NCBI GenBank assembly: GCA_031292215.1 | Contig: JARLHO010000039.1 | Coordinates: forward strand, 1 to 44,127 | Direction of reading: 5' to 3' | Length of the DNA: 44,127 bases | Origin: Syntrophobacteraceae bacterium | Lineage (GTDB): Bacteria; Desulfobacterota; Syntrophobacteria; Syntrophobacterales; Syntrophobacteraceae | Shown: positions 7,114 to 31,582 of the stretch, one piece after another | Position numbering within the stretch: position 1 is the first letter of the stretch | Layout: each line of letters opens with the position of its first letter | Program-made: the position numbers and the translations under genes | Notes under the pieces: model-generated | Databases searched by the model: none | The model's input: only the letters and a program-made list of their open reading frames with translations | What the model was told of the DNA's origin: nothing

Positions 7114-8655
7114 CTAAGCCTGCTTTAGCTCGAAGCGCTTCACCTTGCCGGTGGCCGTTTTTGGCAATTCGTCGATAAACTCGATCCATCTCGGGTATTT
7201 GTAGTGAGCAAGGGCTTTTTTCACATACTCCTTGAGCTCTTTTTCCAACTGCGGACCTGCCGCGTAGCCCCGTTTGAGCACGATAAAAGCTTTCGGTTTA
7301 ATGAGGTTTTCGGAATCGGGGGCGCCTACCACCGCGCATTCGAGTACTGACGGGTGCGTGATAAGGCACGCTTCCACCTCGATTGGCGAAACCCAGATTC
7401 CTCCAACCTTTAACATGTCGTTGCTGCGTCCGATATAGTAGAAGTATCCGTCCTTATCCCTCATGTATTGATCGTCGGTATTGATCCATTCCCCGAGCAT
7501 CGTTTTTTTAGTTTTCTCGTGCTTATTCCAGTAACTGGCCGCGATGCTGTCGCCCTTAATGAGAAGCGTCCCCACCTGCCCGTCTGTGACGTCTTTGAAT
7601 GCCTCGTCGACGATTCTTGCCTCGTAGCCCGGAACGATTGTGCCCGAGCAGCCGGGCCTGATGTTATCGGGCCGGTTCGAGATAAATATATGCGATATCT
7701 CCGTAGACCCGATGCCGTCGAGTATCTGCACGCCGTGGCGCTCGACCCATCGGTTGAGGATCTCGGCGGGAAGGGCTTCCCCGGCGGAGACGCACAGCCG
7801 CGCGCCGGCAAGCTCCCCTTCTGCCTGGAGCATGGAACCGTATAGGGTGGGGACGCCGAAAAAAAGGCTGGGTTTATAGCGCTCGATGGCCTTATACACC
7901 GACTGGGGAGTTGGCCGCTCCGGCATATAGGAGGTGGTGGCCCCGACGCTGAACGGAAGATAGAGCCCGTTGCCCAGCCCGTAGGCAAAAAAGAGCCTGG
8001 CCGCCGAAAAACAGGTGTCATCTTCTCGGATTCCAAGGACTTGCTTGCCGTAGGTCTCGCAGCAGTAGACCATATCGTGCTGGAGGTGGACTGTGCCCTT
8101 GGGTTGCCCGGTCGACCCGGAGCTGTAAAGCCAGAAACAGGGGTCATCGGCAGTGGTGGGGGCTGCGTCCAGTTCGCTGGACTCTTTGGAGACCAGCTCC
8201 GGGTAGGAAGTCGCCCAGTCGGGGGCAGCCCCGTTGACAACGACGATGTGTTCGACAAATCGGAAATCTTTGCGTATGGACTCGATGGTCTCGACCATCG
8301 CGGAATCGATCAGCAACACGCGGGCGCGGGAGTCGTTTAGAAAATAGAGATAATCCTTGGGGCGCATCATGGTGTTAAGGCAAATGGGAACGGCTCCAAT
8401 CTTTATGGCGCCGAAAAATGCCTGTGGATATATCTCCGTATCCAGCATAAGGAGCGCGACGCGGTTTTCCATCCTTACGGCCAGGCCCTTTAGAGCGTTT
8501 CCCACCCGGTTCATCCCTGCCTGGATATCCGCATAGGTAAGACTACGCTCCTCGCACAAAACCGCGGTTTTATTTCCGCGGCCTTCCCGGACATTTCGGT
8601 CCACAAAATAATCGGCGGCATTGAAAAACTCGGGCAGGTTCAGTTCAAAGCTCAT
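7114..8655 (-). CDS. Benzoate-CoA ligase family acyl-CoA synthetase (AMP-forming)
   Basis: 513 residues of the ANL adenylating superfamily. ATP-binding P-loop Y-S-S-G-S-T-G-Q-P-K-G-T is near residue 180; F-F-A-Y-G-L-G-N is typical of benzoate-CoA ligases; then G-I-G-S-T-E, W-I-N-T-D-D-Q-Y, R-S-N-D-M-L-K-V-G-G-I-W-V-S-P-I-E-V-E, and the catalytic Lys in P-K-T-A-T-G-K-V-K-R near the end. The family activates benzoate, hydroxybenzoates or similar acids to CoA thioesters using ATP. No benzoyl-CoA reductase or beta-oxidation genes are nearby, so the true substrate is open. I prefer the ATG at 8655 because GGAAAGG is ten bases upstream; another ATG three codons earlier sits too close to it. Confidence 0.9.
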   Translation of the reverse strand: MSFELNLPEFFNAADYFVDRNVREGRGNKTAVLCEERSLTYADIQAGMNRVGNALKGLAVRMENRVALLMLDTEIYPQAFFGAIKIGAVPICLNTMMRPKDYLYFLNDSRARVLLIDSAMVETIESIRKDFRFVEHIVVVNGAAPDWATSYPELVSKESSELDAAPTTADDPCFWLYSSGSTGQPKGTVHLQHDMVYCCETYGKQVLGIREDDTCFSAARLFFAYGLGNGLYLPFSVGATTSYMPERPTPQSVYKAIERYKPSLFFGVPTLYGSMLQAEGELAGARLCVSAGEALPAEILNRWVERHGVQILDGIGSTEISHIFISNRPDNIRPGCSGTIVPGYEARIVDEAFKDVTDGQVGTLLIKGDSIAASYWNKHEKTKKTMLGEWINTDDQYMRDKDGYFYYIGRSNDMLKVGGIWVSPIEVEACLITHPSVLECAVVGAPDSENLIKPKAFIVLKRGYAAGPQLEKELKEYVKKALAHYKYPRWIEFIDELPKTATGKVKRFELKQA

Positions 8656-22958: not shown

Positions 22959-23537
22959 CTAATTACCGGGCGGCTGGGCCACGGGAGGTTGCGGACCGTT
23001 AACCGGATTTACGCCCGGCTTTTTCGGTTCCTGGTTCGAGAGATACTCCTGTAGCCCCCGCCAATTTCGAAAAATCGTCTTTAAATGAGCGAAACGTTCG
23101 TATCCGAGTAATTTCCTGACTTCCAGCGAGTAAGTAAATCGTGTTGCGGCCATCAGGGTCCGGCTGTTCTCCAGTTTTGTCATTCTAGACATCGCCGCTC
23201 TCTCATCGAGGTGTTCGCGGTCGATCGCCTCCACCAGTTCGACTCTTTCCCGCTCTATCTGCGTCTTAAGCTGCATGAGCCTGTTTCGGTTATAATCGAA
23301 GAGCTTGTCTAGTTGCGCCTTCTGCTGGTCGGAGATATTTAACTGTGTTGCAAAATATGGCAGGTGCCACCACCGTCCGGGAGGGATCTCTTTGGCCCTC
23401 TGGGCGGCCTCGTTGGCAGCGGCGTTGGCAAGCGTGCGGTGTATCCACTTGCCGGGCGCAGCCCGCTGTGCTCTGCACGCCGTTGAGAGCCCAAGCACAA
23501 TCACACCCGCGACTATTGCAAACAGCGCTTTACGCAT
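22959..23537 (-). CDS. CpxP/Spy-like periplasmic stress protein
   Basis: 192 residues. Signal peptide M-R-K-A-L-F-A-I-V-A-G-V-I-V-L-G-L-S-T-A-C, where the Cys could be a lipobox-like site. The mature part is helical, with L-N-I-S-D-Q-Q-K-A-Q-L-D-K-L-F-D-Y-N-R, resembling the LTxxQ repeats of CpxP/Spy and other heavy-metal-resistance-type chaperones. A Pro-rich end (P-K-K-P-G-V, P-Q-P-P-V-A-Q-P-P-G-N) follows. The ATG at 23537 overlaps the anti-sigma stop by eight bases. A longer in-frame extension upstream is only the anti-sigma gene in another frame. Likely a chaperone or sensor accessory for the ECF system. Confidence 0.75.
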   Translation of the reverse strand: MRKALFAIVAGVIVLGLSTACRAQRAAPGKWIHRTLANAAANEAAQRAKEIPPGRWWHLPYFATQLNISDQQKAQLDKLFDYNRNRLMQLKTQIERERVELVEAIDREHLDERAAMSRMTKLENSRTLMAATRFTYSLEVRKLLGYERFAHLKTIFRNWRGLQEYLSNQEPKKPGVNPVNGPQPPVAQPPGN

Positions 23538-24060
23538 TGCGCAATCCGACCTTGGGGGCCGGGCGGACATCATTTTTCGCGCCGGGCTTTGCAGACTCCA
23601 CATTCGGCTTGTGTGAGCCTGGACCCGAAATATCCACATAGAAACCGGGCAGAGGATCGTCTTCGAGATTTCGAACCTCGGCCATGAACTTCTCGTCCTG
23701 AAGCATCTCACGGTAAACAACCCTTTTCGTGAAGATCTTGTCCCTGTTAATGACGATGGGAGTCAGGAAAAGAACCAGGACGCTCAAGGCCGCGCATAGG
23801 GAAAGCACGGGATGAATTCTCCAAACATTTACCATTCCTCCGCCGCTCTTTTCGGCGGCCAGCTTCGGTTTTCTGAAATCAAGCGGTATTTCACCGCGCG
23901 AAAATTCTGCGAATCGAGCAAGTCCGGCTTGCAGCTCCTCTTTTTGGGCGCGGCAGGCGGTGCACTCGGACAAATGACGACGCAGCAACCCATCAAGGCC
24001 TATTTCATCGATTGCGGCCTCCACAATCTGATTATCGTCAAGATGTCTTATCTTTTTCAC
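23530..24060 (-). CDS. Membrane anti-sigma factor with ZAS-type zinc motif
   Basis: 176 residues. Cytoplasmic N-terminus with H-L-S-E-C-T-A-C (the H-x3-C-x2-C zinc-binding anti-sigma motif, about residues 29-36), one membrane helix at about residues 85-105 (L-S-L-C-A-A-L-S-V-L-V-L-F-L-T-P), then a periplasmic tail with D-D-P-L-P-G-F-Y-V-D-I. It should hold the ECF sigma factor until a cell-envelope or redox signal. The start overlaps the sigma gene end by 23 bases, and its own end overlaps the CpxP-like gene. Confidence 0.85.
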   Translation of the reverse strand: MKKIRHLDDNQIVEAAIDEIGLDGLLRRHLSECTACRAQKEELQAGLARFAEFSRGEIPLDFRKPKLAAEKSGGGMVNVWRIHPVLSLCAALSVLVLFLTPIVINRDKIFTKRVVYREMLQDEKFMAEVRNLEDDPLPGFYVDISGPGSHKPNVESAKPGAKNDVRPAPKVGLRNA

Positions 24061-24682
24061 CTTGCCATTCTCCCTGTAAAAATTCGCTCAAAGTCGTGTC
24101 CTCTTTGAATTTGCGGATCGCGCGGTAGAGGTGGGTCTTAATCGCGCTTTCGCTCCTGTGGAGCGTCAGAGCTATTTCCCTCAAGTTGAGATCATCGATA
24201 AACCTCAAAAGAAACACCTCTTTTTCCATTCGCGAAAATCGCTCCGTCAACCGCTTCACATGCGACCAGAATTCTTTACGGATCACAGTGTCTAGCGCCC
24301 CGGGATTGCGATGCGGTTCGATGTCCGCAGCATCTGCATCCTCCCTGGACTCGGTAAACCCGAAGTACGCGAGAAACTTATTTTTGCGGTGAAAATCGTG
24401 TACCCGGTTGAGCGCTATTCTATAGAGCCAGGGACGAAATCTGTCCGAGTCCTTGAGTTGAGGCAGATATTTGAACACGGACAAAAAGATGTCTTGCGTC
24501 AAGTCTTCTGAATCGATTTTGGAGCGAGTGCGGAAAAATACCAGCCGAAAAATCTCGTCCTGATGAAGAGCTATCAGTTTTTCGAAAGCATCCCTGTCCC
24601 CCCCTCTGGCTTTTTCCACGAGCGCAGAAATATGCCCGTCCCTGAGGGAGACTTTCAGTTCAAGTTCTTCGGTCAGATTCAT
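24038..24682 (-). CDS. ECF (RpoE-like) RNA polymerase sigma factor
   Basis: 214 residues. Region 2: D-A-F-E-K-L-I-A-L-H-Q-D-E-I-F-R-L, D-L-T-Q-D-I-F-L-S-V-F, W-L-Y-R-I-A-L-N-R-V-H-D. Region 4: E-V-F-L-L-R-F-I-D-D-L-N-L-R-E-I-A-L-T-L-H-R-S-E-S-A-I-K-T, interrupted here for length, with the recognition helix S-A-I-K-T-H-L-Y-R-A. No region 3, so group 4. The N-terminus is about 25 residues longer than usual and the ribosome site is weak (AGG next to the ATG), so the start could be a little later. It is the first gene of a three-gene overlapped unit. Confidence 0.9.
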   Translation of the reverse strand: MNLTEELELKVSLRDGHISALVEKARGGDRDAFEKLIALHQDEIFRLVFFRTRSKIDSEDLTQDIFLSVFKYLPQLKDSDRFRPWLYRIALNRVHDFHRKNKFLAYFGFTESREDADAADIEPHRNPGALDTVIRKEFWSHVKRLTERFSRMEKEVFLLRFIDDLNLREIALTLHRSESAIKTHLYRAIRKFKEDTTLSEFLQGEWQGEKDKTS

Positions 24683-24939: not shown

Positions 24940-26067
24940 TTAGATGCTTTCGTCAAGCTCGCCGGTTATCTGAAACTTGCGCATGAAGCGCCGGTCAATG
25001 AAGTCTTTCAACAGAAAGGGCAACCTGCCGCCGCATGTCCGGCCGCGTTTAAACAGGATCCCTTTGCTGTCGCCCATGTTCAAAATCAGCATGTAATCCT
25101 CTTTGGGTATGTAGCTTTTCATTTCCCCCCCATCGAGAGCGGCCAGCAGATTGTTATGAAGTATCGGACCTTGCCTTACCGCGTGGACTCCGACCCTGGC
25201 AAGTGTGGCTCCCTCCAGACTGATGCAGTCTCCGCCTCCAAACAATTCCGGATAATCAATGCTTTGGAGGAACCTGTTGACTGGTAAGCTCCCGTCTAGC
25301 GCAACCCGGAGGCCGGAGTCTCTGAATATGACGGAGGGCCTTATCCCCATCGCCAAAAAGACATAGTCATAAGAAAGAGTTTCCTTGTCGGATAAGGTCA
25401 GCCAGGTTTTTTCAACCGAGCGCACCCTCTTGCCTTCAATTACTTCGATGCCTCGCCCACCAAGCGACTTCAGGGCAAGGCGCCTCGCCCCGGGAGGACA
25501 ACCTTCCAGTAACCTCTCGCCGGCAACAAGGACTATTTGCGCTGGTCTTCCGTTATTGTGCAAAAGTCTCCATAGATTCGCGCACACTTCCACACCGCCT
25601 GGTCCACCCCCGGCGACAACGATCCGCAGGGGTCTCCCGTGAGCTTCGTTTAGAATGGAGGAGCGGGCTTTATAAAGATTTAGGACAGGTTTTACCGCAA
25701 TCATTCGGCTGTTAAGAGACCACAGTGGATCGATGGACACATCGCTACCGCAGTTAAAAGAAGCGACATCGTAGGGCAGAATTTGTCCCCCCCTTAACAA
25801 AAGTCTGCGGTTGCCGGCATCGATTGCCGACACGCTGTCTTCGATAAACTCGGCCCCACCCCGCTCGGCCATCTTCCGCACGTTAAAGCGTACCCGGGGA
25901 GGGTCGTAGACACCCGAGAGCAAGCCAGGCCCCATTCCTGAGTAATATGAGTACGAAAAGGGATTAATGAGAGTGACCCTGTGGCCTCTATGCAGGTAGA
26001 CGGCAATTCGGGTGAGTGGTGTCAACTGCGCGTGACCTGCGCCAACCAAGACCAGATGTTTGCCCAT
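24940..26067 (-). CDS. NAD(P)/FAD oxidoreductase of the type fused to SelD
   Basis: 375 residues, two-dinucleotide-domain flavoprotein. M-G-K-H-L-V-L-V-G-A-G-H-A-Q begins the FAD site; Y-S-Y-Y-S-G-M-G-P-G-L-L-S-G matches the family in which this domain is fused N-terminally to selenophosphate synthetase SelD (I recall model TIGR03169). NAD(P) site V-V-A-G-G-G-P-G-G-V-E-V; C-terminal FAD site F-G-G-G-D-C-I. Related proteins include NDH-2 and sulfide:quinone reductases. The ATG at 26067 is preceded by AGAGGA. It is divergent from the radical SAM gene, so they share a control region of about 240 bases. A selenium link is an inference from family and neighbours. Confidence 0.82.
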   Translation of the reverse strand: MGKHLVLVGAGHAQLTPLTRIAVYLHRGHRVTLINPFSYSYYSGMGPGLLSGVYDPPRVRFNVRKMAERGGAEFIEDSVSAIDAGNRRLLLRGGQILPYDVASFNCGSDVSIDPLWSLNSRMIAVKPVLNLYKARSSILNEAHGRPLRIVVAGGGPGGVEVCANLWRLLHNNGRPAQIVLVAGERLLEGCPPGARRLALKSLGGRGIEVIEGKRVRSVEKTWLTLSDKETLSYDYVFLAMGIRPSVIFRDSGLRVALDGSLPVNRFLQSIDYPELFGGGDCISLEGATLARVGVHAVRQGPILHNNLLAALDGGEMKSYIPKEDYMLILNMGDSKGILFKRGRTCGGRLPFLLKDFIDRRFMRKFQITGELDESI

Positions 26068-26306
26068 AATAGTCCTCTGTGACAAGATTTACGGCGCGGC
26101 CCCAAAGCACTCTCAGCATGCAATTTGCCCGGCAGGCCCCCCAAGTGAAATCTAAACGACACAATCGCGAGGCTAAAACCATGGAAATTATAGCTCACAT
26201 ACCAAGAGTGTATAGCAATGGCCAGTATTTTGTAGCATAGTTAAAAGTCGAAGGGTGCGCTTCGAAGCTCTCCTTGAAGGAACTGTCATTACCAGAGAAA
26301 AACGTA

Positions 26307-27461
26307 ATGGCTATTGCATTTCTGCGGGGTAAAATATCGTATCATTCTTCAAAAGTCGGCAAATTCTTTGGCGCTACCGGAAAAAGAATAGATAGCCGGA
26401 TAACGGGCATTGGGGAAGGTATGGCCCAGGCGTTTATGGAAAAGACGATAAGCAGCGAGTTATCAAAAGTTGGCGAGGCAATTGGCGCCGAAGAGCAAAG
26501 CGTGCCCCCCGCATCATTTGCTTCGATGCTGGCCCGCCACGAGCTAAAACTTGTTCGCGGAAACACCTCGGTTTTGCAGATCAACATGGGACTTCTTTGC
26601 AACCAAAGGTGTCGCCACTGCCATTTGGAAGCCGGTCCGGACCGCGTCGAAATGATGGATGAAAAAACGACGGCCGAAATCATCGAGTTTGCCGGCCGCG
26701 GTCGTTTTCAGACAGTCGATATCACGGGCGGCGCCCCTGAGCTGAACAACAACCTCGCCACCCTTATCGAAAACCTCGCAGGTCTTGCCCCAAAAATCAT
26801 GCTTCGTTCCAACTTAACGGCTTTAACCGATGTTGGGCGCAGATATCTGGTGGAACTTTGCAGGGAATATAAAGTGGTCCTGGTTGCCTCTTTCCCATCC
26901 CTTAACCAGGGACAGACGGACTCACAACGCGGCAGCGGAATCTGGGAAAAAAGCATTGCCGCCCTAAAAGAACTCAATGCCGCAGGATACGGTGAACCTG
27001 ATTCAGGCTTGGTACTCGACATTGTCTCCAATCCTTCGGGCGCTTTTCTTCCCTCTTCTCAGGAGGCGACCGAAAAAAGGTTTCGAAGGGACCTCGGGAG
27101 CAGGTGGGGCATAGGGTTTAACCATCTCTACACGTTCGGCAATGTCGCCCTGGGAAGATTTCGGAAATGGCTGATAGATTCGGGGAATTTCGAATCATAC
27201 ATGCGAAGGATTACCGAGAGTTTCAACCCCTGCACGATTGACGGTCTCATGTGTCGAACACTGGTATCCGTCTCCTGGGACGGATACCTCTATGACTGCG
27301 ATTTTAACCTGGCGCAAGCCATCCCGATGGGAGGACGGGCGATGCATGTTTCTGAGGTTGAAGGCCCCCCGAAACCGGGGACACCGATCGCCGTGGGGGA
27401 ACACTGCTATGCATGCACGGCCGGCCCCGGATTCACCTGAGGAGGGGCCATCGAAGGCTGA
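26307..27461 (+). CDS. arsS: ArsS-like radical SAM / Cys-rich protein with probable selenocysteine
   Basis: 384 residues if UGA 27438-27440 is read as Sec. Radical SAM site C-N-Q-R-C-R-H-C (C-x3-C-x2-C); G-G-A-P-E-L follows. The C-terminal Cys-rich domain ends G-E-H-C-Y-A-C-T-A-G-P-G-F-T-[UGA]-G-G-A-I-E-G. Known family members (radical SAM/Cys-rich, ArsS, the rSAM_SeCys type) end C-x-A-G-x-G-S-S-C-G-G, so the UGA sits where they have Cys or Sec. ArsS is linked to arsenosugar synthesis, using S-adenosylmethionine. The N-terminus has an extra stretch of about 75 residues. I place the start at ATG 26307; a TTG at 26274 is possible. The AhpD-like partner follows. Confidence 0.85.
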
Positions 27462-27476
27462 GTTCAGCGCAAAGGT
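27438..27476 (+). promoter_or_regulatory. Candidate bacterial SECIS hairpin after the in-frame UGA
   Basis: GCTG (27457-27460) pairs with CAGC (27465-27468) around an AGTT loop, about 21-24 bases after the UGA, inside the 16-37 base window known for bacterial SECIS. Lower pairing is possible between GCC (27447-27449) and GGT (27474-27476). The loop holds a G-U as in E. coli fdhF. The second stop at 27459-27461 lies within the hairpin. Confidence 0.55.
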
Positions 27477-27545
27477 ATTTAACAAAACTCCCCACCCGGA
27501 AAAGATCTCCCAACCTGCAAAACAAGAAAAGAGGAGGCAAGTGGC

Positions 27546-27878
27546 ATGGAAAGTTATTATCAGCCCGAAGATCTAGCAAAGTTTGAGGAAATCGGAAAAG
27601 AAGCCCCGGAGCTCGCGAAAAAATTCTTTGATTACTACGCGGCGGTCTTTGCCGATGGCGAGTTGACGGAAAGAGAAAAATGTCTCATCGCTCTCGCCGT
27701 GGCCCATACCATTCAGTGCCCCTATTGCATCGAAGCCTACACGCGGGCCTGCCTGGAAAAGGGTTCCAACCCCGGCGAAATGACCGAAGCCGTTCATGTC
27801 GCCACAGCAATTCGCGGAGGGGCCTCTCTTGTCCACGGCATCCAGATGCGCAACATCGCTCAGAAGATATCGATGTGA
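27546..27878 (+). CDS. AhpD/CMD-family peroxidase-like protein, arsenosugar/selenium-associated
   Basis: 110 residues of the carboxymuconolactone decarboxylase/AhpD fold. The redox motif is C-P-Y-C-I-E-A-Y (C-x2-C), followed by M-T-E-A-V-H-V-A-T-A-I-R-G-G-A-S-L-V-H-G. This matches the subgroup usually encoded beside the ArsS-like radical SAM protein, named an arsenosugar biosynthesis-associated peroxidase-like protein; some members carry Sec. Here both catalytic positions are Cys. GAGGAGG precedes the ATG. It lies 84 bases after the radical SAM gene on the same strand. Confidence 0.88.
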   Translation: MESYYQPEDLAKFEEIGKEAPELAKKFFDYYAAVFADGELTEREKCLIALAVAHTIQCPYCIEAYTRACLEKGSNPGEMTEAVHVATAIRGGASLVHGIQMRNIAQKISM

Positions 27879-27971
27879 ACCGACACCACTTTGATTTTTC
27901 CCAGATAAAGGCCTTGGCGCCGATCGGCATGTTCAGCAAAGCTTTTGAACTGGAAAACGGGAGCAGCGATC

Positions 27972-29528
27972 ATGGATACTGAGGGGTCTAAAGGCGTTTT
28001 CCCGCAGGATCGATACAATAAGATCCTAATTGCAAACGTTTTCCCGCCCGATTGGAGAAACCCCGCGCCTTCGGGCAGATACAACCTTGTAGTAATCGGA
28101 GCAGGGACGGCCGGCCTTGTCGCTGCAGCAGGCGCCGCAGCCCTTGGGGCCAAGGTTGCCCTGGTCGAAAGGCATCTTATGGGGGGCGACTGCCTCAACT
28201 ACGGGTGCGTTCCCTCCAAGGCGGTTATCCGCTCCTCCCGGCTAGCCGAAGATGTGCGATCGGCGGATGGCTTTGGCGTGCGCATCCCGCAGGGTGTTAC
28301 GGTCGATTTTTCGGCGGTCATGGAACGGATGCGAAGGTTGCGAGCGAAGATCAGTTCGCACGATTCGGCAAATCGTTTCCGGGAACTCGGAGTGGATCTT
28401 TTTTTTGGAGAAGCTCGGTTTACAGGGAAAGATTCACTCGAAGTCGGCGGGAAAAAGCTACGATTTGCGAAGGCGGTGATCGCCACCGGAGCACGGGCTG
28501 CCGCACTTCCGATAGAAGGGCTAAGGGAAGCGGGATACCTTACCAACGAAACGGTCTTCTCGCTAACCGAGCGGCCGGAGCGGCTTGCGGTGATAGGAGG
28601 TGGCCCGCTTGGCTGCGAGCTTGCCCAGGCGTTTCAAAGGCTTGGCTCTAAGGTATCCATCATCCACACCGGTGAGCATCTCCTTGGAAGAGAGGATAGC
28701 GATGCGGCAAGGATAATTCAGGAGACTTTTTTACAAGAAGGCGTGCAACTGCTGCTACATGCCAGGCCGGAGAAGATCTCCGGAACAAGTGAAGGGAAGA
28801 TGGTCTTCTACGAAAATGAGATAGGGAAGGGGAGTATCGTTGTTGACGAGATCCTGCTGGGAGTGGGGCGGGCCCCGAATGTGGAAGGGCTTAATCTCGA
28901 AGCCGCAGGGGTCGCATATGATGTAAAAGCAGGAGTCACGGTAGACGATTTCCTTCAAACCAGCAACCCGCGGGTCTATGCCGCAGGAGACATTTGCCTC
29001 CCGTACAAATTCACGCACATGGCAGACGCCACGGCGCGAATCGTGATTCAAAACGCGCTTTTCATGGGGCGAAAGAAACTGAGCGAACTGACCATTTCCT
29101 GGACAACCTACACGGACCCTGAGATTGCCCACGTGGGGATGTACGAATGGCAAGCCAAAGAGCGGGGCATCGAGGTAGATACTTTCCTGAAATCTTTTAG
29201 CGAGGTCGACCGCGCGGTTATCGACAGTGAAGAGTCCGGGTTTGTCAAAATCCACGTCAAGCGGGGCAGCGATAAAATTTTAGGCGCAACAATCGTAGCG
29301 CGACACGCCGGGGAGATGATCGGTGAAATCGGCCTTGCCCTGGTAAAAGGAGTTGGCCTTGGCGCCCTAGCCAATGTCATCCACCCCTACCCGACCCAGG
29401 CGGAAGCCATAAGGCAGGTTGCGGATATGTACAAGCGCACCCGCCTTACCCCTTTTATCGAGAGCCTTCTCTCCTTCTGGCTAAGGCTTCGGCGCTGGAG
29501 TCCCAAAGGTTCCAGCTATTCCAGCTAA
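27972..29528 (+). CDS. MerA-like FAD pyridine nucleotide-disulfide oxidoreductase
   Basis: 518 residues. FAD motif V-V-I-G-A-G-T-A-G-L-V; active disulfide G-G-D-C-L-N-Y-G-C-V-P-S-K; NAD motif V-I-G-G-G-P-L-G-C-E; C-terminal H-P-Y-P-T-Q-A-E-A base motif. It resembles mercuric reductase in its core, but the MerA N-terminal metal domain and the C-terminal Cys-Cys pair are missing, so mercury reduction is unlikely; the end is instead basic and Ser-rich (K-G-S-S-Y-S-S). Proteins of this kind are often next to or fused with TVP38, as here. The start at 27972 has GGGAG nine bases upstream. Substrate unknown. Confidence 0.85.
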   Translation: MDTEGSKGVFPQDRYNKILIANVFPPDWRNPAPSGRYNLVVIGAGTAGLVAAAGAAALGAKVALVERHLMGGDCLNYGCVPSKAVIRSSRLAEDVRSADGFGVRIPQGVTVDFSAVMERMRRLRAKISSHDSANRFRELGVDLFFGEARFTGKDSLEVGGKKLRFAKAVIATGARAAALPIEGLREAGYLTNETVFSLTERPERLAVIGGGPLGCELAQAFQRLGSKVSIIHTGEHLLGREDSDAARIIQETFLQEGVQLLLHARPEKISGTSEGKMVFYENEIGKGSIVVDEILLGVGRAPNVEGLNLEAAGVAYDVKAGVTVDDFLQTSNPRVYAAGDICLPYKFTHMADATARIVIQNALFMGRKKLSELTISWTTYTDPEIAHVGMYEWQAKERGIEVDTFLKSFSEVDRAVIDSEESGFVKIHVKRGSDKILGATIVARHAGEMIGEIGLALVKGVGLGALANVIHPYPTQAEAIRQVADMYKRTRLTPFIESLLSFWLRLRRWSPKGSSYSS

Positions 29529-29548
29529 ATGTCAAGGGGGAGAGGGAA

Positions 29549-30241
29549 ATGAAAGAAATAGCTCCGGGCGCAAGGCGTCGCACCGCGTGGGTAAAGGCAC
29601 TATTTTTGGCCTGCTTTTTTGTTGCGGCCATTGCTCTTGTGCATTTCACCCGGGTATCCGATTATCTACAAGCCAAGACGCTTTCTCGGCTGCTGCATGA
29701 AGCAGGGCCATGGGCGCCCGTCTTATTTATCCTTATCTATGCCATGGGAGTGTGCATACTGATCCCCGGCACGGTGCTGACCGGCCTTGGGGCCGCGATA
29801 TTTGGCCCCTACCTGGGGTTTGCCTACGTGTGGATAGGGGCGATGGCGGGCGCAGCCGGGGCATTTCTTCTAGGCCGAACGCTTGGAAGAGATTTTGCCA
29901 CCTCTCTTATCGGGGAGAAGCTCAAAAAATATGACGAAGCCATCGAGCGAAACGGTTTTGCGACGGTACTCTACCTTCGGCTTATCTATTTCCCCTTTTC
30001 GGCCATGAATTACGGAATGGGGCTAACGAGGGTGCGCTTCCGCGATTATTTCCTGGGCACGGCCATCGGGATTATAGTAGGCACTTTCGTTTTCACCTTT
30101 TTTATAGGAACCCTTCGAGATGTCTGGGCATCGGGACAATGGGGTCAACTGCTTACCCCAAGAGTTTTTATTTCACTCGGGCTCTTTGTTTTCTCATTTT
30201 TCATTCCCAAAATCATAAGGAAAATGAGTAAGGGCGCCTGA
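29549..30241 (+). CDS. TVP38/TMEM64-family (DedA-like) membrane protein
   Basis: 230 residues, about six membrane segments. The SNARE-associated core has G-A-A-G-A-F-L-L-G-R-T-L-G-R-D-F and L-R-L-I-Y-F-P-F-S-A-M-N-Y, the F-P-x-x-x-x-N-Y/N motif of the family. Members of DedA/TVP38/VTT are implicated in lipid movement across membranes; the bacterial role is unsettled. It follows the MerA-like gene by 20 bases, so they are probably co-translated. Its last 48 bases overlap the end of the convergent glycosyltransferase gene. Confidence 0.88.
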   Translation: MKEIAPGARRRTAWVKALFLACFFVAAIALVHFTRVSDYLQAKTLSRLLHEAGPWAPVLFILIYAMGVCILIPGTVLTGLGAAIFGPYLGFAYVWIGAMAGAAGAFLLGRTLGRDFATSLIGEKLKKYDEAIERNGFATVLYLRLIYFPFSAMNYGMGLTRVRFRDYFLGTAIGIIVGTFVFTFFIGTLRDVWASGQWGQLLTPRVFISLGLFVFSFFIPKIIRKMSKGA

Positions 30242-31582
30242 GACCGTACCAGGTTTTAGCTTCTCTACTTTTGATCCGTAATATCTTCGGTACAGTTCGG
30301 TTTCCTTGCAGCCAAGAGCGGAGAGGAAAAAGATCAGATGATTTTGCAAGGAAGCTTTGAGCACCCCGTTTCGCAGATATCTGCCAGGGGAGGTATATAC
30401 ATACTCAGCCATTATCGAGATATCCCTTGCGCCCCCTCCGATTTTTCGAAGCTTTCGAACGATCTCCACGTCTTCCATGAGATATTTTCGCCCGAAACCG
30501 CCTGCTCTTTCAAAGAGGTCTTTTCGGCAAAAATACCCCTGGTCCCCGTAGGGAAGCTTACAGAGGGAAGTCCTGAGATTGGCCCACCCGGAGATAAGAT
30601 CAAGTGCCCGGTTAGAGGGCCGGAAGCGAAGCTTGAAACAACCCGCAACTTTAGGCTTGTCCCTGCAGGAGCTTCTTATCAGGTAAGCAAATTGGGGTGG
30701 GGGAGTGGTATCGTCATGCAAAAAGAAAAGTATATTTCCCCGAGACAACATGGCCCCGACGTTTTGCTGAATACCCCGCCCTCTAATCGTTTTAATGACC
30801 GTTAGGGCCGGCGACTTGCGGTGCAAGGCGGTTTTATCAAAAGCCCCTCCCTCCACGACAACTATTTCGTCTCCCGGCCAGAGTAAATTTTCGAGGTAGT
30901 GCAAAAGAGGCGACAACCTTTCCGTCTCGCTAAGGGTTGGGATTATTATTGAAATAGAGTCGCTAAAAAGGGGGTTTCGATCCAGCCTCGCCAGGTCGGA
31001 CTTTTGGTCCACGTCGTATCTTCGCGGGGCGAGGTGTACTCGAAACCCTGCGGCTTCGAATTCCCGGGCGGTTCGGGAGAAGACCTCATTTGTACCCCAC
31101 GTGGTGAAATCAAAGGGCGAGTCAATCGCTCGATCGGTACCTACGAGATAAAAACCGCCATCGGCGGCGGGTCCCAGGACAACGACATTTTCTCCCCAAT
31201 TTTTAAATGCTTCCTCTATATCGCCTGCCTCGACATCGGCAAGATCGGTTCCGATGAGAACCGCGCGGCCGGCGCCCTGTGCGAAAGCCGAGCGCAAGGC
31301 GCTCGCCATTCGGTAACCGAGGTGATCGCCTTCCTGCTCTTGAAATTTCCATGGCCCCCGGAATTTGTTCACAAGGCCTTGCAGCGGATCTTTTGGCATA
31401 TAGAAAAGGGTAATATCGATCTGCGGGGATTTGCGCTTCACATCACACGCTATGCCAAGGGTCCTTCGCACCAGCTTTTCATAGATCCGGGCGGCGCCTT
31501 CGACACCCACTTCCTTTGCAAGGCGGCTTTTTACTCTGCCCGGCGCCGGATATTTTAAAAAAATCAAAAGAGCGTTACCCAC
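30194..31582 (-). CDS. Fused rSAM/selenodomain-associated transferases 1 and 2
   Basis: 462 residues, two enzymes in one chain. Residues about 1-200: DUF2064/CofC-like nucleotidyl-sugar transferase (L-K-Y-P-A-P-G-R-V-K-S-R-L-A; L-I-G-T-D-L-A-D-V; G-P-A-A-D-G-G-F-Y-L-V-G). Residues about 205-462: GT2-family glycosyltransferase (I-I-I-P-T-L-S-E; F-L-H-D-D-T with a D-D metal pair; L-P-Y-G-D-Q-G-Y-F; M-E-D-V-E). From family naming (transferase 1 and 2, rSAM/selenodomain-associated; separate genes in many genomes) it belongs with the ArsS-like gene. The GTG at 31582 follows AGGAGG; a TTG 15 codons earlier is not needed. Transcribed toward the radical SAM set. Confidence 0.85.
   Translation of the reverse strand: MGNALLIFLKYPAPGRVKSRLAKEVGVEGAARIYEKLVRRTLGIACDVKRKSPQIDITLFYMPKDPLQGLVNKFRGPWKFQEQEGDHLGYRMASALRSAFAQGAGRAVLIGTDLADVEAGDIEEAFKNWGENVVVLGPAADGGFYLVGTDRAIDSPFDFTTWGTNEVFSRTAREFEAAGFRVHLAPRRYDVDQKSDLARLDRNPLFSDSISIIIPTLSETERLSPLLHYLENLLWPGDEIVVVEGGAFDKTALHRKSPALTVIKTIRGRGIQQNVGAMLSRGNILFFLHDDTTPPPQFAYLIRSSCRDKPKVAGCFKLRFRPSNRALDLISGWANLRTSLCKLPYGDQGYFCRKDLFERAGGFGRKYLMEDVEIVRKLRKIGGGARDISIMAEYVYTSPGRYLRNGVLKASLQNHLIFFLSALGCKETELYRRYYGSKVEKLKPGTVSGALTHFPYDFGNEK

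Follow-up and report, generated by a model that had tools for sequence, protein, structure and literature searches.

The MerA-like flavoprotein disulfide reductase and the TVP38-type membrane protein encoded next to the radical SAM selenoprotein ArsS in the DNA analyzed here have a conserved association with ArsS in the phylum, and are probably its functional partners. The DNA (the window) is the 44,127-nucleotide contig JARLHO010000039.1 of a Syntrophobacteraceae bacterium from the phylum Desulfobacterota. The cluster is best read as a variant of the known arsenosugar cluster, in which the disulfide-reductase/membrane module is the new part. The chemistry is inferred, and it appears evenly balanced whether the cluster indeed carries out arsenosugar-type (organoarsenical) biosynthesis with this module dedicated to it.

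Organization of the locus and the selenoprotein ArsS

The genome from which the contig derives has a size of 4.9 Mb and is 97% complete. The preliminary description had named six genes, all of which are found by family scans at the positions it gave. Four of them, encoding ArsS, the AhpD-like protein, the MerA-like protein and TVP38, form a run on one strand (26274-30241) with gaps of 84, 93 and 20 nt as counted from the ATG starts. The fused transferase gene is convergent with this run, and the flavoprotein gene is divergent from it (Table 1). ArsS, the AhpD-like protein and both halves of the transferase score above the curated cut-offs that NCBIfam sets for its four "arsenosugar biosynthesis" families. 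The GTG at 31582 is the likely start codon of the fused transferase. A scan of the window against Rfam gave no match.

Table 1. Features of the ArsS locus, in coordinates of the window
Feature	Position	Strand	Evidence
NAD(P)/FAD flavoprotein, TIGR03169-like	24940..26085	-	260 bits (cut-off 310); judged outside the system
arsS, radical SAM selenoprotein	26274..27461	+	TIGR04167 370 bits (cut-off 300) and DUF3641; alignment
UGA read as Sec	27438..27440	+	invariant Cys column of the motif HCYxCTAGxGFT(U/C)GGA
bSECIS-like hairpin GCUG-AGUU-CAGC	27457..27468	+	17-28 nt past the UGA
AhpD-like protein, CPYC motif, without Sec	27546..27878	+	TIGR04169 190 bits (cut-off 120)
MerA-like flavoprotein disulfide reductase	27972 (or 27945)..29528	+	NF004991 831 bits (cut-off 620)
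TVP38/TMEM64-type VTT (DedA superfamily) membrane protein	29549..30241	+	PF09335
Fused CofC-like TIGR04282 and GT2-like TIGR04283 transferase	30194..31582 (or 31627)	-	both halves over cut-off: TIGR04282 167 bits (cut-off 134), TIGR04283 190 bits (cut-off 182)

The following observations show that the ArsS of the window is a genuine selenoprotein. The protein contains both the CxxxCxxC radical SAM motif and the C-terminal HCYxCTAGxGxxC/U motif, and its whole core aligns with other ArsS proteins, with an identical set of cysteines. The column that is an invariant Cys across 14 aligned ArsS proteins corresponds to the TGA codon 27438-27440. Among the 78 ArsS loci with a classifiable motif, this position is encoded by TGA in 49 and by TGC or TGT in 29. 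A bSECIS-like hairpin follows the codon in nearly all of the 49 Sec loci and is absent from the Cys loci. The hairpins are stable, their loop is often AGUU or AGGU, and their stem sequences vary clearly. The region downstream of the codon folds with a median free energy of -9.1 kcal/mol in the Sec loci vs -3.1 kcal/mol in the Cys loci, and with a mean z of -1.46 vs -0.26 (P 2e-9), the Sec set being richer in GC. The hairpin of the window, with its stem of 4 bp, is among the shortest, and the post-UGA region of the window folded alone is no better than its shuffles, so that the hairpin is convincing only because of its recurrence across the 49 loci. A second in-frame TGA (27459-27461) lies inside the hairpin and is taken to be the stop codon of ArsS because TAG or sense codons are found there in other loci. 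The genome encodes tRNA-Sec and SelB (362 bits).

The Sec form of ArsS (TIGR04167) is already listed among the prokaryotic selenoproteins as a GxxU protein, AAR34688.1 (PMC13188914, PMC9312934). The window protein resembles the known ArsS in its full-length match over the cut-off and in the Cys/Sec motif. It differs in an N-terminal extension of about 90 amino acids, in belonging to a genome that has no recognizable ArsM, and in its MerA-like and TVP38 partners, of which the accessible text of the two papers makes no mention for the known Sec-ArsS. The closest named matches, at 62% or less, come from metagenome-assembled genomes of Deltaproteobacteria/Desulfobacterales.

Association of the MerA-like and TVP38 genes with ArsS

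By examining 80 ArsS loci of the phylum, which were fetched irrespective of MerA, it is possible to describe the surroundings of ArsS in some detail. The AhpD-like gene adjoins ArsS in about 50 of the loci. A MerA-like gene is present in 28, at a distance of 5 kb or less in 24 of them, and a TVP38 gene in 23 to 28, with 23 at 5 kb or less. Some of the MerA-like neighbors are paralogs of 30-42% identity, and 13 have an identity of at least 48%. When all open reading frames are clustered blindly and antisense shadows are set aside, MerA-like and TVP38 rank directly after ArsS and AhpD. The conserved co-localization with ArsS on which the preliminary description had staked the membership of these two genes is therefore what the phylum displays, at 28 and 23 of the 80 loci.

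The genes occur in same-strand runs of variable order (AhpD-ArsS-TVP38-MerA-GT in locus L058, for example), and some of them are fused: AhpD with ArsS in L086, and TVP38 with MerA in L075, L081 and L244. These fusions add Rosetta-stone support for the partnership. The TIGR04282-TIGR04283 transferase fusion recurs in eight other loci, and the four arsenosugar families occur together repeatedly, in many genomes. In the ArsS tree, three rows of which were picked for adjacency, the adjacency of the MerA-like gene changes at least 11 times.

Over 395 genomes, ArsS is found in 37 of the 51 that contain NF004991 and in 83 of the 344 others (odds ratio 8.3, P 3e-11). With families instead of genomes as the unit, the proportions are 19/23 vs 38/84 (P 0.002). 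NF004991 lies within about 5 kb of ArsS in 15 of the 37 genomes with both, representing 10 families and varied gene orders, as read by hand from the coordinates; by chance, each genome would have a probability of about 0.3% of showing this. Within the genus, the set of genomes carrying ArsS and the set carrying NF004991 coincide exactly, at 7 of the 11 (P 0.003, assuming that the genomes are independent). The two are linked in two genomes only, and most congeners have the MerA-TVP38 pair at a distance from ArsS, the pairing itself being kept in all congeners with enough contig. The recurrent adjacency, the co-occurrence and the fusions mark the MerA-like and TVP38 genes as conserved partners of ArsS, in line with the proposal of the preliminary description that they may share its pathway. 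The joint recurrence of these genes and the arsenosugar families supports its view of a pathway-type cluster as opposed to a chance set.

The association between ArsS and the reductase is largely limited to the phylum of the window. In a second set of 80 ArsS loci, mostly from Bacteroidota, the neighbors are ArsM, a purine nucleoside phosphorylase (PNP) and a rhodanese, and a MerA-like gene is associated with ArsS in only 4 loci, all of them from Deltaproteobacteria. As the MerA-like gene is nearly absent from this set, the reductase module characterizes the window's phylum. The Bacteroidota cluster has the composition AhpD-ArsS-ArsM (NF038099)-PNP-rhodanese-TIGR04282/TIGR04283. It shares AhpD, ArsS and both transferases with the window, which lacks ArsM, PNP and the rhodanese and has the MerA-like and TVP38 genes instead. 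No report of a MerA-like/TVP38-ArsS association was found in the openly available literature; the subscription literature lay mostly outside this scope, and a prior report there is possible.

Properties of the reductase module and a possible mechanism

The MerA-like protein has a CLNYGC (CxxxxC) redox pair and an HPYPTQAE dyad, and it has no HMA domain. The HPYPTQAE motif, which is common to nearly all ArsS-linked MerA-like copies, is of the His-Glu kind present in Lpd and glutathione reductase. The C-terminal tail, RRWSPKGSSYSS, does not contain the vicinal Cys pair of MerA. Identity with the mercuric reductase MerA (TIGR02053) was rejected, the score being 387 bits against a cut-off of 454 and the C-terminal Cys pair being missing. 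Because the His-Glu motif is kept and both the Cys pair and the HMA domain are absent, reduction of a dithiol-disulfide or of an arsenical is likelier than that of mercury. Judged by its sequence, the protein is likelier to be a dithiol-disulfide flavoreductase than a mercuric reductase. It resembles the NF004991 family (PRK06370.1-3) in its 831-bit match and in the CxxxxC redox pair, and differs in its ties to ArsS and to radical SAM-ArsM fusions and in the lack of a mer operon.

TVP38 proteins are relatives of DedA, some of which have lipid-flipping roles, and fusions of COG0398 DedA/TVP38 proteins with flavoreductases are known in general (PMC10127716). The window TVP38 shares the VTT domain with COG0398, and fusions with PF07992/PF02852 occur among the window's relatives as well. 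Unlike the COG0398 flavoreductase fusions, it is encoded by a separate gene, and its association with ArsS is absent from the accessible part of PMC10127716.

The acceptor of the known ArsS is dimethylarsenite. In arsenosugar synthesis, the step catalyzed by ArsS is the adenosylation of a trivalent arsenical (Cheng et al. 2021, cited through PMC12159101). The Sec-ArsS of the window would likewise place a 5'-deoxyadenosyl group on a methylated arsenical in the trivalent state, as has been shown for other ArsS, and the fused CofC-like/GT2-like transferase would then add the sugar-side groups. The MerA-like protein might pass electrons from NAD(P)H, possibly via the CxxC AhpD-like protein, to keep the arsenic trivalent, and the same supply might keep the Cys and Sec ligands of ArsS reduced. 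TVP38 could have a role at the membrane, for instance on a lipid-linked product, which is the weakest step and a guess. The redox mechanism of the MerA-like/AhpD-like module is tentative and somewhat more doubtful than the arsenosugar-type assignment of the cluster. The AhpD-like protein is not an obligate electron carrier, because in the nearest congener ArsS and the MerA-like gene are not separated by an AhpD gene. Genes zwf, gnd and pgl are found near ArsS in 6-8 loci each, which would fit a reduction step fed by NADPH.

Alternative readings and implications

The preliminary description had called the neighborhood selenium-flavored, and its version of the locus can be put as a selenium pathway: an intermediate containing selenium would be processed by the flavoprotein, ArsS, the AhpD-like protein, MerA-like and TVP38. 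The selenoprotein nature of ArsS and the name of TIGR03169 (Nterm_to_SelD), which refers to domains N-terminal to SelD, speak for such a pathway. The flavoprotein, however, is a stand-alone protein below the TIGR03169 cut-off (Table 1). It is present in 2 of 11 congeneric genomes, in the other of which it lies away from ArsS, and it does not recur beside ArsS in the 80 phylum loci, so that neither its membership nor a selenium pathway built on it could be retained. Selenium enters the system solely as the Sec of ArsS, and the 29 of 78 ArsS proteins that use Cys include several with the same neighbors. The AhpD-like protein is a CxxC protein here, and the families concerned are those of NCBIfam arsenosugar biosynthesis. 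The handling of a selenium intermediate by this set of proteins is therefore very improbable.

A less remote alternative, yet still an unlikely one, is that MerA-like and TVP38 form a self-standing unit against metal or oxidative stress, reducing mercury or another electrophile, that is often found in the metalloid-resistance neighborhoods of ArsS and stands outside its pathway. Of the 51 genomes with the MerA-like gene, 14 have no ArsS, from which it follows that the reductase also serves elsewhere. The separation of MerA-TVP38 from ArsS in most congeners and the general occurrence of DedA-flavoreductase fusions (see above) agree with a unit of this kind. So does Synechocystis Slr1849, called MerA, which presumably falls within NF004991 (PRK06370.1-3). 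That protein is linked to mercury, and slr1849 is mercury-induced (PMC6741143). The stress unit is opposed by the coincidence of ArsS and MerA-like in the genus and the phylum, by runs that join the pair to ArsS and GT genes in the manner of an operon, and by the absence of the C-terminal CC pair and HMA domain of mercuric reductases. It is also opposed by five genomes without ArsS (G080, G162, G187, G316 and G334), in which NF004991 adjoins a fusion of radical SAM, ArsM-like and DUF5714 domains of about 1030 amino acids (domains read in two of the five, the G187 copy found by tblastn only). Genes gnd and zwf follow this pair once.

The substrate of ArsS might also differ. The genome of the window has no recognizable ArsM: the best scores, 100.8 bits against a cut-off of 263 and 41.6 bits, point to a generic methyltransferase, and none reaches 1e-50. 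A canonical ArsM elsewhere in the genome was rejected, as only a generic methyltransferase matched, and the "complete pathway" of the preliminary description lacks this step. Among the 395 genomes, the arsenosugar-type ArsM NF038099 is over its cut-off in none and the canonical ArsM NF008823 in 109. The presence of ArsS shows no association with that of ArsM across the phylum (36/120 vs 73/275, P 0.54), and at E<=1e-50 an ArsM match is missing from 64 of the 120 ArsS genomes. These findings, together with the restriction of ArsM and PNP as standard neighbors to the other, mainly Bacteroidota set, would agree with a Sec-ArsS that, in ArsM-less genomes, acts on an acceptor other than dimethylarsenite (arsenite in its unmethylated form, a selenium compound or some other thiophile) and gives a different adenosylated product. 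The alignment of the ArsS core throughout with other ArsS and the same Cys set argue against this, an ArsM of a different family could escape detection, and methylarsenicals can come from neighboring organisms of the sediment. An ArsM-like gene also adjoins ArsS at some phylum loci: in L108, the order on one strand is PHO4 transporter-ArsM-like-ArsS-MerA-like-TVP38, the ArsM-like and MerA-like proteins both scoring under their families' cut-offs. A different acceptor is improbable, slightly more so than the stress unit. Its extension, in which the dedicated MerA-like/TVP38 redox-membrane module would work with such an ArsS towards an undescribed adenosylated metalloid metabolite, is a little less probable again.

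For the variant arsenosugar cluster, the reductase and the membrane protein, which recur next to ArsS across ten families, are concrete candidates for the later steps and the electron supply of bacterial arsenosugar synthesis, which to our knowledge are unassigned. As far as we know, the partner families owe their "arsenosugar" label to co-occurrence rather than to an assay. The occurrence of ArsS independently of ArsM in this phylum calls into question the substrate that the family name assumes.

Variation at the ArsS locus within the genus

In L049, the nearest congener's locus, the AhpD gene is absent, and the MerA-like gene begins almost directly after the end of ArsS. The junction between the two genes contains a short stretch resembling AhpD, TTCAGTGCCCCTATTG, and looks like the outcome of a deletion or an assembly error. 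In another congener (L051), ArsS has the Cys codon TGC at the position of the Sec codon.

Surroundings of the SelD-N-like flavoprotein

Within the genus, the flavoprotein has just one further close copy (L257); the genes next to it were identified by eye as rubrerythrin-like and pirin-like, and ArsS is not nearby. Just past the window flavoprotein lie genes for an ECF sigma factor, a further ORF, the start of which resembles a zinc finger, and an LTXXQ (Spy/CpxP-like) protein. These genes look like a separate unit for envelope or metal stress.

Coordinates of the features
Feature	Locus	Position	Strand
ArsS/MerA-like junction	L049	~7440-7560	reverse
Sigma factor, ORF and LTXXQ genes	window	22959-24682	minus
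SelD-N-like flavoprotein	L257	2288-3460	
Fusion protein	L237	6875-9958	
Fusion protein	L238	5508-8630	
Fusion protein	L240	7035-10121	
Fusion protein	L244	6027-9167	

Radical SAM-ArsM-like-DUF5714 fusion proteins

The oxidative pentose phosphate genes zwf, gnd and pgl adjoin ArsS or the radical SAM-ArsM fusion in several loci (L057, L059, L060, L079, L090, L091, L244, L251).

In the proteins of the fusion family, ~1030-1100 aa long, radical SAM, ArsM-like methyltransferase and DUF5714 domains share one chain. Many more genomes have ORFs of ~1030-1130 aa that are listed with the family. No NCBIfam equivalog matched the fusion above cut-off, and a literature search gave no paper on it. The fusion may be a so far unstudied organoarsenical enzyme.
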